Position numbers and translations under genes: made by a program. 37,106 nt of DNA, taken from positions 1 to 37,106 of the forward strand of contig CAIPEB010000266.1 in NCBI GenBank assembly GCA_903863885.1, in the 5' to 3' direction. Source of the DNA: an uncultured Planctomycetaceae bacterium. GTDB taxonomy: Bacteria > Planctomycetota > Planctomycetia > Pirellulales > Pirellulaceae. Below are positions 2,981 to 7,530 of the stretch, one piece after another. Under the pieces are notes generated by a model. The model did not search any database, had not been told where the DNA came from, and worked only from the letters and a program-made list of their open reading frames with translations. The stretch's first letter is position 1, and each line of letters starts with the position of its first letter.

Positions 2981-3052
2981 GCCGGCGGGCTTCGGGGGCG
3001 TTCAGGGGGCCGGGAATCCAGAGCGGGTTGCAGTTTACGGGAAGACGGCGTG

Positions 3053-4528
3053 ATGAAGGATCTGAAGGTCCCCGGACAGAGAGTCACGGTCGTTCGCGAC
3101 GTGCCTGCCTCGGAGCAGGGCGAATACGTTCTGTATTGGATGACGGCGAATCGGCGCGCCTCGTGGAATTTCGCGTTGCAGCGGGCTGCGGACTGGGCCG
3201 TGCGGCTCCGCAAGCCGCTGCTGGTCTTCGAGCCGCTGAGGTGCGGCTACCGCTGGGCGTGCGACCGCTTCCACCGTTTCGTGATCGACGGGATGGCGGA
3301 CAACGCCCGAAAACTGGATCGCCGCGGTGTACTTTATTATCCGTACCTCGAGCCGGCCGCGGGCCGGGCTCACGGACTGCTTGCGGCGCTGGCCCGCCGG
3401 GCGTGTCTTGTGATCGGCGACGATTACCCCTGCTTCTTCCACCCCCGCATGTTCGCCTCGGCGGCCCGGCAGATCACCGTCCGCTGGGAGCAGTTGGACT
3501 CCAACGGTCTGCTGCCGATGAACGCCGCACCGTCGGCCTTCAAGCGGGCATTCGATTTCCGCCGCTTCCTGCAGAAGTCGCTGCTCGATCACCTCGGAGA
3601 TGCGCCGCTGCCCGATCCGCTGCACGGCCTCTCGCTGCCGGAAGCCGACTTCCCGCTCCAGGAAATCCGCAGTCAATGGCCGTCCGTCGATGTGCAGGGA
3701 CTTTCGCGTCCGGAGTCGATTCTGGCCGGTCTGCCGATTGACCATCAGGTTGCTGCAGTGCCGGTTCGAGGAGGCATGCGGGCCGCGGCCGATGCGCTGC
3801 GGCAATTCCTCTCGAGCAAACTGGCCCGGTACGATACGGACCGCAATCAGCCGGAACAGGAAGTGACCAGCGGGCTGGCGCCGTATCTGCATTTCGGCCA
3901 CATTTCTTCGCATCAGGTTTTCCACGACTTGATGAAGCAGGAGGACTGGTCGCCGGCCCGAGTGGCCGGGAAAGTCACGGGCAGCGCTCAGGGCTGGTGG
4001 GGGATCGGCGCGGGCGCCGAGGGCTTTGTCGATCAGCTGGTGACGTGGCGAGAACTCGGCTTCAATCTCTGCTCCAAGACGACCGACTACGACCAGTACG
4101 ATTCGCTGCCTGACTGGGCACGGCGAACGCTGCAGGTTCATGCCCGGGACCGGCGCGAGTACATCTACGACCTGCCGCAGTTCGATGCGGCCGAAACGCA
4201 CGACCCGCTCTGGAACGCGGCGCAACGGCAACTGGTGACCGAAGGGCGGATGCACAATTATCTTCGGATGCTCTGGGGCAAGAAGATTCTCCAGTGGAGC
4301 GCCGATCCGCGGGGCGCGCTGGAAACGATGATCGAACTGAACAACCGTTATGCGCTGGACGGACGCGATCCCAATTCATACTCGGGCATCTTCTGGTGCC
4401 TGGGACGATACGACAGGCCCTGGGCGCCGGAGCGCCCCGTGTTCGGCCAGATCCGCTACATGAGCAGCGAGAACACGGCCCGCAAAGTGCGCGTCCGGGA
4501 TTACATCCGGCGCTACGGCACGACGTGA
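3053..4528 (+). CDS. Class II CPD photolyase
   Basis: The 491-residue flavoprotein of the photolyase/cryptochrome superfamily would use light to split cyclobutane pyrimidine dimers. The N-terminal Rossmann domain starts with GEYVLYWMTANRRASWN, as in class II enzymes. The FAD-binding helical domain carries WRELGFNLC, the MHNYLRMLWGKKILQW helix, LNNRYALDGRDPNSYSG, and WAPERPVFGQIRYMSSENT near the C-terminus, all class II hallmarks. The start is ATG at 3053; a GTG directly before it at 3050 is equally in frame. A GGGAAG sits just upstream. It follows the QueD-like gene by 72 bases and precedes an Fe-S photolyase, probably in one transcript. The antenna chromophore cannot be told from sequence. 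Confidence 0.93.
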   Translation: MKDLKVPGQRVTVVRDVPASEQGEYVLYWMTANRRASWNFALQRAADWAVRLRKPLLVFEPLRCGYRWACDRFHRFVIDGMADNARKLDRRGVLYYPYLEPAAGRAHGLLAALARRACLVIGDDYPCFFHPRMFASAARQITVRWEQLDSNGLLPMNAAPSAFKRAFDFRRFLQKSLLDHLGDAPLPDPLHGLSLPEADFPLQEIRSQWPSVDVQGLSRPESILAGLPIDHQVAAVPVRGGMRAAADALRQFLSSKLARYDTDRNQPEQEVTSGLAPYLHFGHISSHQVFHDLMKQEDWSPARVAGKVTGSAQGWWGIGAGAEGFVDQLVTWRELGFNLCSKTTDYDQYDSLPDWARRTLQVHARDRREYIYDLPQFDAAETHDPLWNAAQRQLVTEGRMHNYLRMLWGKKILQWSADPRGALETMIELNNRYALDGRDPNSYSGIFWCLGRYDRPWAPERPVFGQIRYMSSENTARKVRVRDYIRRYGTT

Positions 4529-4630
4529 CGCGAACTCGCGGCGAACCTTGCAGGCGGAGTTGGCATGAAGGCGTTTAGCCACGCACGATGAAGACGCGCA
4601 GCCGGTAGTCGGATGGGTGTTTGTCTTTCT

Positions 4631-4651
4631 CCGGACTCCGGACTCCGGACT
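4631..4651 (+). repeat. Short tandem repeat, three copies of CCGGACT
   Basis: Three exact heptamers CCGGACT lie head to tail in the gap between the two photolyase genes, followed by TTTTCG. TCCGGA is itself a palindrome, so short alternative hairpins can form. No function is evident. Confidence 0.7.
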
Positions 4652-4676
4652 TTTTCGTACGAGTTACGGCAGGAAA

Positions 4677-6233
4677 ATGACAAGCAAGCGAACCCGCAGG
4701 TCCGTACGCAACCTCGTGCTGGTGCTCGGCGACCAGCTGGACCGCAAGTCGAGCGCGCTGGAAGGATTCCACCTGCAGCAGGACTTGGTCTGGATGGCCG
4801 AACTGGCGGAAGATGCGGAGCAGATCCGGTCGCACAAAGCCCGCATCGCTTTCTCTCTGAGCACGATGAGGCACTTCCGCGACGATCTTCGCGAGCGCGG
4901 CGTCACCGTCCACTACCGGGCCCTGGATGACCCGGATCACCGGGGGAAGCTTGCGGACGAATTGGATCTGGCGGTCGATCAGTTCAGGCCGGAACGGATC
5001 GTGGTAGTGCAACCCGGCCAGTGGCGCTCGGAGGAACTGCTTCGCACCATTTGCGACCGGCTTGGCGTGGCGCTTGAAGTGCGCGAGGACCAGCATTTTC
5101 TCTGTTCGCGCGACGAGTTCTCCCGCTTCGCCCGCCAGCGCCGCTCGCTGCCGATGGAGCAGTTCTATCGCCACATGCGGCGCAAGACCGAAGCCCTGAT
5201 GGAAGGCAAGACGCCTGTCGGCGGCAAGTGGACCGTCGCCGGCGACAAGCGGCTGCGGCTGCCGCGAAAGGGAACGGCTGACATTCCGCGGCCGATGGCC
5301 TTCAAGCCGGATACCCTGACTCGCGAGGTCCTCGAACTGGTCGGCCGGCGATTCGCGGCCCATCCCGGCAGCCTCGAGCATTTCGACTGGCCGGTGACTG
5401 CCAGGCAGGCGCGGGAAGCGCTGGTCGATTTCGTTCGACACCGGCTCCCCTGGTTTGTCGCGCACCAGGAGACCATGCACTCGTCCCATCCTTTCCTGTA
5501 TCACTCGCGCCTTGCGGCAGCAATGAACGTCAAACTGCTCGATCCGCGCGACGGTATTGCCGCGGCCGAAGCCGCCTATCACTCGCAACGCGCATCGTTG
5601 AGTTGCGTCGAGAGCTTCATTCGCCAGATCCTCGGCTGGCGCGAGTACGTGCGGGGCATCTACTGGCACCTGATGCCGGAATATCGGAGCCGCAATGAAC
5701 TGGCGGCCGACCGGTCGCTGCCCGCCTTCTATTGGACGGGCGAAACGGAAATGCACTGTCTGCGCGAAACGATCGCGCAGGTATTGACGCACGGCTATTC
5801 GCATCACATTCAGCGGTTGATGGTCACGGGACAGTTCGCACTGCTGCTGGGAGTCGCGCCCCTCGAGGTGCTCCAGTGGTTCCTTGCCGTGCACGTGGAT
5901 GCAGCGGAATGGGCAGCCGTCCCGAATGTGCTGGGGCTGTCGCAGTTTGCCGACGGCGGACTCGTCGCAGCCAAGCCGTGCGCGGCCGGGGGCGCGTTCA
6001 TTCACCGCGCGAGCGGCTGCTGCCGCCGTTGCCGCTTCAACCCCGATGTGAAGTCGGGCCAGGATGCTTGCCCGTTCAATATTCTCTACTGGGACTTCCT
6101 GCAGCGCCACCAGTCGACGTTTTCGAGCGTGGTGGCCATGAAAAAGCAGCTTGCCCGGCTGAATGACATGCCGGCTCACGAGATGCGGGAGATCGTGGAG
6201 CAGGCCGATCGCTTGCGCAACTCGATCCCCTGA
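4677..6233 (+). CDS. Fe-S bacterial cryptochrome/photolyase, (6-4)-type
   Basis: This is a 518-residue protein of the deoxyribodipyrimidine photolyase-related (FeS-BCP) family, whose studied member Agrobacterium PhrB repairs (6-4) photoproducts. It opens with LVLVLGDQLDRKSSAL, typical of the family. The four [4Fe-4S] cysteines are present at 361, 449, 452 and 465; their spacing (88, 3, 13) is the same as I recall for PhrB. The FAD domain includes IRQILGWREYVRGIYW and THGYSHHIQRLMV. The ATG at 4677 is preceded by AGGA at close spacing; an upstream in-frame ATG at 4617 would start in tandem-repeat DNA and is rejected. The family's antenna is usually a lumazine (DMRL). It lies 148 bases after the class II photolyase. 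Confidence 0.93.
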   Translation: MTSKRTRRSVRNLVLVLGDQLDRKSSALEGFHLQQDLVWMAELAEDAEQIRSHKARIAFSLSTMRHFRDDLRERGVTVHYRALDDPDHRGKLADELDLAVDQFRPERIVVVQPGQWRSEELLRTICDRLGVALEVREDQHFLCSRDEFSRFARQRRSLPMEQFYRHMRRKTEALMEGKTPVGGKWTVAGDKRLRLPRKGTADIPRPMAFKPDTLTREVLELVGRRFAAHPGSLEHFDWPVTARQAREALVDFVRHRLPWFVAHQETMHSSHPFLYHSRLAAAMNVKLLDPRDGIAAAEAAYHSQRASLSCVESFIRQILGWREYVRGIYWHLMPEYRSRNELAADRSLPAFYWTGETEMHCLRETIAQVLTHGYSHHIQRLMVTGQFALLLGVAPLEVLQWFLAVHVDAAEWAAVPNVLGLSQFADGGLVAAKPCAAGGAFIHRASGCCRRCRFNPDVKSGQDACPFNILYWDFLQRHQSTFSSVVAMKKQLARLNDMPAHEMREIVEQADRLRNSIP

Positions 6234-6727: not shown

Positions 6728-6741
6728 ACGGAAGGAAAGGA
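6728..6741 (+). promoter_or_regulatory. Shine-Dalgarno region with three ANGGA motifs
   Basis: ACGGA (6728-6732), AAGGA (6732-6736) and AAGGA (6737-6741) lie just before the ATG at 6751. The last one is the ribosome-binding site. CsrA binding here would block ribosome access, the classical way CsrA represses translation. Confidence 0.55.
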
Positions 6742-6750
6742 GACCCAGTC

Positions 6751-7530
6751 ATGTTAGTGTTGTCGCGAGGCGTGGACGAGAAGGTTGTGTTCCCTCATCT
6801 GGGGATCACGGTTCAGATTCTGAGGGTTGCCGGGAATAAGGTGCGCATCGGCGTGGACGCGCCGCCCAGCGTCAGGGTCTTGCGCGAAGAGATTGCCGAG
6901 CCGGCGGACATGCAGTGCCTTGAGCAGGTCATGGCCGGTGTGGTCGAACAGGCGACCAAGACGAAGACGTTGTCGCATGAATTGCGAAACCGTCTGAACA
7001 TGGCAAGTCTGGCGCTGCATCTGGCTCAGAAACAGATCGAAGTGGGCATGTCGGACCGTGCCGAGGAGACGATCCAGCGGGCGTTGCAGGAATTTGCCTC
7101 GCTCGAGGAAACCCTGTCGCACGAGATCGCGCCGGTTGATCTGCAGTCCAAGCGACGGGCGCTCCTGGTCGAAGACAACGCCAACGAAAGCGCGTTGCTG
7201 GCCGGGTATCTGCAGATGGCCGGTTTCCACGTCGATACCGTGGGCGACGGCGCCGAGGCATTGAAGTATCTGTCCGAGCACGCCAAGCCGGATGTGATTC
7301 TGCTGGACATGCGGATGCCGAAGCTTGACGGTCCGGGAACCGTCTCGTCGATTCGGTGCAAGCCGGAGCTGCGCGGGCTGAAGCTGTTCGCCGTCAGCGG
7401 CACGGACCGCAGCGAAGTGGATGTCAAGATCGGACCGGGCGGCGTCGATCACTGGTTCTGCAAGCCGATCAACCCGAAGCAGCTGGTTGAAGAGATCGAC
7501 AAGCGGCTGACCAATCCGATTTCGGCCTGA
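6751..7530 (+). CDS. CsrA - DHp-like - receiver (REC) fusion regulator
   Basis: This 259-residue protein appears to have three parts. Residues 1-50 are a full CsrA domain (MLVLSRGVDEK, then NKVRIGVDAP and VRVLREEI), keeping Arg6 and the Arg of LREEI that contact GGA RNA. Residues about 55-126 form a helical hairpin resembling the dimerisation/phosphotransfer domain of histidine kinases, with an H-box-like LSHELRNRLN (His76) but no ATPase domain anywhere. Residues about 135-255 are a receiver with acidic pair Glu141/Asp142, phospho-acceptor Asp186 in LLDMRMP, Ser216 and Lys238 before Pro. CsrA is normally a stand-alone protein of about 60 residues. The inference is RNA binding controlled by phosphorylation. 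The gene is alone, convergent with the PPC gene, and no kinase adjoins it. Confidence 0.9.
   Translation: MLVLSRGVDEKVVFPHLGITVQILRVAGNKVRIGVDAPPSVRVLREEIAEPADMQCLEQVMAGVVEQATKTKTLSHELRNRLNMASLALHLAQKQIEVGMSDRAEETIQRALQEFASLEETLSHEIAPVDLQSKRRALLVEDNANESALLAGYLQMAGFHVDTVGDGAEALKYLSEHAKPDVILLDMRMPKLDGPGTVSSIRCKPELRGLKLFAVSGTDRSEVDVKIGPGGVDHWFCKPINPKQLVEEIDKRLTNPISA

Follow-up and report, generated by a model that had tools for sequence, protein, structure and literature searches.

A gene in the window, as we call the whole 37,106-nucleotide stretch of DNA that was analysed, encodes a 259-residue protein that we judge, with rather better than even confidence, to be a response regulator carrying both a CsrA RNA-binding output and a His phosphotransfer module of its own, standing at the end of a His-Asp-His-Asp relay that would gate RNA binding. 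The fusion of CsrA, hairpin and receiver is real and, within the sampled genomes, confined to one class, as the spread of matches across genome draws and a scan of named genomes establishes. The relay itself, from kinase His to kinase Asp to His76 to Asp186, is proposed because a hybrid relay needs a second His, the family supplies one, and the members that lie beside receiver-less kinases have mostly lost it.

Results

The reading frame opens with ATG and has no internal stops, and its three parts follow one another as listed in Table 1. The original prediction had described a complete N-terminal CsrA sequence, a central two-helix segment bearing His76, a C-terminal receiver with Asp186 and no HATPase domain, and all four points were borne out: the receiver matches PF00072 (Response_reg) at residues 138–249 with 63.1 bits against a cut-off of 30.2, and no Pfam match to HATPase was obtained for the window protein at E up to 10. 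An AlphaFold2 model built from 16 sequences (mean pLDDT 84.7, pTM 0.51) shows CsrA strands, the two central helices and a receiver fold, and the rows shown by a Foldseek search with the whole model were receivers. The window protein carries a CsrA domain but is no canonical CsrA protein; with TIGR00202, the NCBIfam equivalog for the canonical small CsrA, it reached 48 bits, below the cut-off of 70.1.

Table 1. Features of the CsrA fusion gene and its leader in the window
Feature	Position	Strand	Basis
CDS, 259 aa, CsrA, DHp-like hairpin, receiver	6751..7530	+	ORF reading, Pfam, relatives
Purine-rich leader GGAAGGAAAGGAGA, ribosome-binding-site-like	6730..6743	+	Sequence reading
CsrA domain, residues 1–50	6751..6900	+	PF02599, 55.7 bits (cut-off 27)
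Two-helix DHp-like hairpin, residues 51–125	6901..7125	+	AlphaFold2 helices 51–97 and 101–125; profile match to kinase HisKA
His76 codon, proposed phosphotransfer His, motif HELRNRLN	6976..6978	+	Aligned with kinase phospho-His
Receiver domain, residues 135–254; Asp142, Asp186, Ser216, Lys238	7153..7512	+	PF00072; solved receivers matched by sequence and fold
Asp186 codon, proposed phospho-acceptor	7306..7308	+	Sequence reading, alignments

Residues of both terminal domains are strongly kept. The RNA contacts of E. coli CsrA are Leu4, Arg6 and Arg44, the last of these corresponding to Arg45 of the present family; over 190 aligned members Leu4 is found in 172, Arg6 in 190 and Arg45 in 189, and the window copy has all three. 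Among the first 46 distinct aligned sequences (window included), Arg6, Arg45, Asp186 and Lys238 are each present in 46/46 and His76 in 37, and over the 190 members Asp186 is present in 184 and His76 in 152. The window copy retains the four receiver site residues and His76 intact. An intact receiver accompanies His76 in 151 of the 190 members and occurs without it in 22, while 16 members have neither and one combines His76 with a degenerate receiver; degenerate receivers are found in 17 members, 16 of which also lack His76. Eight CsrA fusions with key receiver residues lost (L252, L253, L255, L256, L261, L265, L291 and L293) are without His76, and no kinase was found within 1 kb of them in the stretches read.

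The leader contains GGA triplets, of the type bound by CsrA, and self-control of the window gene is a possible consequence of this sequence. Upstream lie two photolyase-like genes, at 3050–4528 (+) and 4617–6233 (+), the matches there being a weak one to FAD_binding_7, below its cut-off, and one to DPRP (237 bits); a PPC-domain gene lies downstream.

The resemblance of the hairpin to the DHp of a histidine kinase, also part of the original prediction, holds for profiles and is weak for the single sequence, in which PF00512 (HisKA) matches residues 72–119 with 16.0 bits, below the cut-off of 26.9. When a profile of the family hairpin, made from the 152 His76-bearing members, was compared by hhalign with 99 HisKA segments of kinases in the stretches read, the match had a probability of 96.3 and a score of 43.3, with His76 falling on the phospho-His. 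Controls scored at most 12.5 for 30 column shuffles (probability at most 1.8), with 12.0 when the alignment was reversed and 8.8 when a coiled-coil was used. Modelled alone, the hairpin again forms two helices, and VIA-align placed DHp chains of the kinase DesK in its top rows (Z 9.1) and HK853 at 7.9, a Z of about 9 being modest for a helical hairpin; judged from the range starts, and provided that the alignments are ungapped, His76 would lie at HK853 260 and no more than one residue from DesK 188. Foldseek with the hairpin alone returned nothing significant, and no kinase was among the matches of the hairpin profile to solved chains. Fourteen hairpins scanned singly with Pfam at E up to 0.1 matched HisKA (5), ARM_TT21 (5), TPR_19 (3) and SPOB_a (2). 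These comparisons suggest a DHp-like hairpin, a likeness that is weak in a single sequence and holds at profile level.

Assembly error as the source of the CsrA join, the doubt that had accompanied the original prediction, is ruled out, as many genomes contain full-length relatives. A 34-row profile (E up to 1e-30) found matches in 102 of the 241 genomes drawn from the window's family, 15 of 43 from the family of G258, 39 of 170 from that of G546, 39 of 196 from the order and 16 of 392 in a phylum sample, the last 16 all belonging to the window's class. The genome draws behind these counts overlap, some matches are partial and, in most draws, only some candidates per genome were scored. In the scan of named genomes, 15 of the best 80 of 403 loci have matches that begin at residue 1 (E no higher than 5e-48); 14 of them have planctomycete names, one being Bythopirellula polymerisocia, and one is named only "bacterium" (L066). 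The other 65 of the best 80 match from residue 31 or later, mainly over the receiver or the hairpin plus receiver, and many belong to Flavobacterium. Many Flavobacterium and Dyadobacter kinase loci (within L080–L144) align to the window protein from about residue 75, that is over hairpin plus receiver, without CsrA. Hairpin-less CsrA-receiver proteins of 190–194 aa also exist; at three of them (L046:14351-14932, L047:5740-6309 and L378:10357-10926), opposite-strand CheB-CheR kinases without a receiver lie within 1 kb.

Histidine kinases are frequent neighbours of the family. The survey covered 134 stretches with 138 ORFs that match the family from its first positions, of which 130 are distinct in the sense that identical sequences were merged and near-copies remain. 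An ORF matching CheB as well as the kinase core lies within 7 kb of 48/130 members, and a complete kinase ORF within 1 kb of 74/130, 39 of these 74 being CheB-CheR hybrids. The chance expectation for a kinase within 1 kb is about 3%, estimated from the 52 matches to the kinase core (E up to 1e-40) in 11 Mb, and perhaps a few times higher because 52 is a lower bound. The window copy is one of those members, 56 of the 130 in this first set and 35 of the 60 in a second, within 1 kb of which no complete kinase was found. In Bythopirellula polymerisocia (NZ_SJPS01000001.1, locus L070), by contrast, the regulator is closely linked to an HK-receiver ORF of 543 aa that lies 60 bp downstream. Five CheB-type neighbours examined with Pfam read CheB-CheR-PAS-HisKA-HATPase-receiver, with lengths of 1349–1434 aa. 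The phospho-His is present in 74/74 partner kinases of the first set and Asp/Asp/Lys in 61/61 of their hybrid receivers. Distances among kinases correlate with those among regulators (rho 0.55 over 39 pairs), the maximum of 999 permutations being 0.26.

His76 follows the make-up of the neighbouring kinase. For each member we considered the closest kinase ORF, up to 1 kb away, that was uncut by the end of the stretch, and recorded whether a receiver follows the kinase core. Truncated kinases were passed over, with the exception of L046, which was resolved with L308; at L374 the truncated nearest kinase was replaced by the one following it in distance. His76 and a kinase receiver occur together in 60 of the 74 scored members of the first set and are both absent in 12, with one member having His76 only and one the receiver only. 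The rule was then fixed before a second set was scored, consisting of 60 further distinct members in 63 stretches, 25 of them with a complete kinase, and here the corresponding counts were 20, 3, 2 and 0. Pooled over 99 members, His76 stands with a hybrid kinase in 80, neither is present in 15, His76 alone in 3 and the receiver alone in 1 (Fisher p 5.9e-14, a value that is only descriptive because related rows are not independent); beside receiver-less kinases, His76 is lost in 15/18. Kinase ORFs cut by the edge of a stretch but with a visible receiver add 15 more members, all with His76, those without a visible receiver being left uncounted. A Pfam receiver was absent from 9/9 receiver-less neighbour kinases scanned, that of L210 included. 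Ten clusters contain one scored member of each kind, and in all of them each member fits its nearest kinase (L043, L046, L047, L054, L055, L280, L283, L370, L372 and L378); at L054 the partner of the member without His76 is a CheB-CheR kinase that has no receiver.

Most of the scored rows without His76 sit in one part of the tree. Trees built from CsrA and receiver columns imply 5–7 changes, with 2–3 independent pairs on starred branches, and a sign test on these was not significant in two attempts. As read from the sequences, then, the hairpin His76 is kept almost only where the neighbouring kinase has its own receiver, through few independent evolutionary switches, a pattern that suggests a relay. 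Together with the HisKA profile match, it lends support to the phosphotransfer through His76 that had been raised as a possibility in the original prediction.

Four members depart from the rule. L238 has His76, its nearest kinase is a 407-aa PAS-HK, and the contig extends only about 420 bp before it. L365 also has His76; its nearest kinase is a 494-aa PAS-PAS-HK overlapped by a separate single-receiver ORF, and the contig ends about 640 bp downstream. At L391, again with His76, the nearest kinase is a CheB-CheR ORF (L391:2946-6257) without a receiver and with Lys at the place of the phospho-His; another kinase ORF, which does bear a receiver, ends 3.7 kb upstream. L259 has Phe76 beside other hybrid kinases. 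A receiver acting in trans fails to rescue the rule uniformly, given that at L372 the member without His76 adjoins a kinase that is followed by a separate receiver ORF. Left unscored were L284 (where the HK-receiver ORF is separate from a CheB-CheR-PAS ORF), L048 (where neither member was found to have a kinase nearby) and L051 (no kinase in the stretch). The row of L210 is doubtful, with a receiver-like tail that has no site residues and, beside the kinase, an ORF that bears a receiver; it counts among the 99 tabulated rows, and the second tree was built without it.

The genome of the window (G000) comprises 11.0 Mb in 789 contigs and holds 14 CsrA domains, in proteins from about 64 aa up to fusions, among them the window gene, a second full-length fusion on contig C68 and a 194-aa CsrA protein, L060. 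This last is the third CsrA fusion of the genome (C569:12699-12845 region; the same place as L210). Its receiver-like tail, in which the site residues are missing, follows directly on CsrA, and its neighbours are a kinase and a further ORF with a receiver. No kinase was found beside the window gene, which makes the window copy an orphan, or in the 14 kb read for the C68 copy. Contig C246 carries an unpaired CheB-CheR-PAS-HK-receiver ORF of 1281 aa, which we infer to be the partner of the window protein; no receiver ORF was found near it in the 18.4 kb read, and it is therefore only a candidate. Among paired kinases, those of L242 and L066 lie nearest to it; among the paired regulators, that of L066 ranks second in closeness to the window protein. 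The genome has two more CheB-CheR ORFs, on C190 and C702, that are also possible partners.

Discussion

Control of CsrA usually lies with sponge RNAs or FliW. For the present family we infer a flow of phosphate that would begin with a hybrid kinase, most often of the CheB-CheR-PAS-HisKA-HATPase-receiver type, phosphorylating its own His and passing the group to the Asp of its own receiver. From there the phosphate would move to His76 in the CsrA protein's DHp-like hairpin and on to Asp186, in cis or across the dimer. Phosphorylated Asp186 would reposition the hairpin and the CsrA dimer on top of it, such that GGA-type mRNA sites would be bound or released, depending on the presumed sense of the switch. 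Sister proteins that face receiver-less kinases, mostly without His76 or the whole hairpin, would receive phosphate directly onto Asp186. We give about even chances to the full scheme of a two-protein relay, often with a CheB-CheR hybrid on top, in which the last protein is phosphotransferase, receiver and RNA-binding regulator at once, CsrA is switched without a sponge RNA, and the His is kept or lost according to the partner's receiver.

The distribution of His76 bears on a simpler possibility, namely that the protein is a plain two-component regulator whose kinase phosphorylates Asp186 directly, with the hairpin a DHp remnant serving dimerization or coupling and His76 a structural leftover. 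DHp domains are dimerizers and CsrA is a dimer, which suits a coupling element, the hairpin-less proteins show that CsrA and receiver can occur without it, and H+1 has no conserved acid (Ala 37, Glu 35 and Asp 25 among the 152 members with His76). Such variability is also what might be expected of a hairpin that has ceased to autophosphorylate. A mere leftover, however, fits poorly with a His retained in 152/190 members and lost mainly beside a receiver-less kinase or where the protein's own receiver is degenerate, and we consider this reading unlikely, if still a serious contender. More doubtful is the idea that the hairpin works in reverse and drains phosphate from Asp186, as a phosphatase or by back-transfer to the receiver of the hybrid kinase, setting the lifetime of the signal. 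Asn at H+4 (139/152) and Arg at H+3 (134/152) recall the E/DxxT/N phosphatase motif of HisKA kinases, and the tie between His76 and a receiver-bearing partner suits reverse flow as well as forward; the acid of that motif, at H+1, is nevertheless unconserved, and the sequence data give no direction. Very improbable is a decaying or signal-independent CsrA paralogue with an unphosphorylated receiver in the orphan window copy, for although no kinase lies beside the gene and a class with degenerate receivers exists (17/190), its four receiver site residues and His76 are intact and the genome holds an unpaired CheB-CheR hybrid kinase.

The relay preferred here has partial likenesses among known systems. 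CsrA has already been listed as an RNA-binding output of response regulators, in a paper citing a 2006 census (PMC2222644). The original prediction knew of no characterization of this architecture, and no description of the function of any CsrA-receiver protein was found in the open-licence PMC papers searched. The CsrA-type regulators of that census (Galperin 2006, as cited in PMC2222644) share CsrA and receiver and are probably of the same architecture class; the citing passages give no hairpin, partner kinase or mechanism. As far as the literature searched tells, the DHp-like phosphotransfer module, the link to CheB-CheR kinases and the His76 rule are new. E. coli CsrA itself appears as an orphan response regulator in PMC12471899, an entry that we do not take to denote a fusion.

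Response regulators of the ANTAR type (EutV, PdtaR) likewise place a receiver on an RNA-binding output and bring RNA under two-component control, according to PMC3369931 and PMC12471899, whereas the window protein has an N-terminal CsrA output, a His-bearing DHp-like hairpin between the two parts and no Pfam match to ANTAR at E up to 10; the ANTAR and sponge-RNA readings were both dropped. In the Csr/Rsm systems a two-component system, BarA-UvrY or GacS-GacA, also controls CsrA, but there the regulator turns on sponge RNAs, whereas here receiver and CsrA share one polypeptide. A further likeness is to the dimeric DHp-type His phosphotransferases Spo0B, ChpT and PhyT, in which a DHp stands between a receiver donor and a receiver acceptor, ChpT and Spo0B supplying the second His between receiver Asp and final Asp (PMC9981736 and PMC5898713). 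The window protein differs in having no CA-like domain (HATPase, E up to 10), in that the receiver follows the hairpin directly, and in the fusion of the hairpin to both acceptor receiver and output. By analogy it may work like these proteins, yet we do not class it as one of them.

If the relay is correct, CsrA at its end would couple sensing to the control of mRNA in a single step, and an output would be suggested for the planctomycete CheB-CheR-kinase fusions. The family would also offer a natural series of His-bearing, His-less, hairpin-less and receiver-degenerate members in which the retention or loss of a phosphotransfer module could be followed alongside its partner. In each of four clusters (L043, L054, L055 and L283), three CheB-CheR kinases accompany a pair of CsrA regulators, of which one has His76 and the other does not; a single RNA-level output may there be fed by several sensors.
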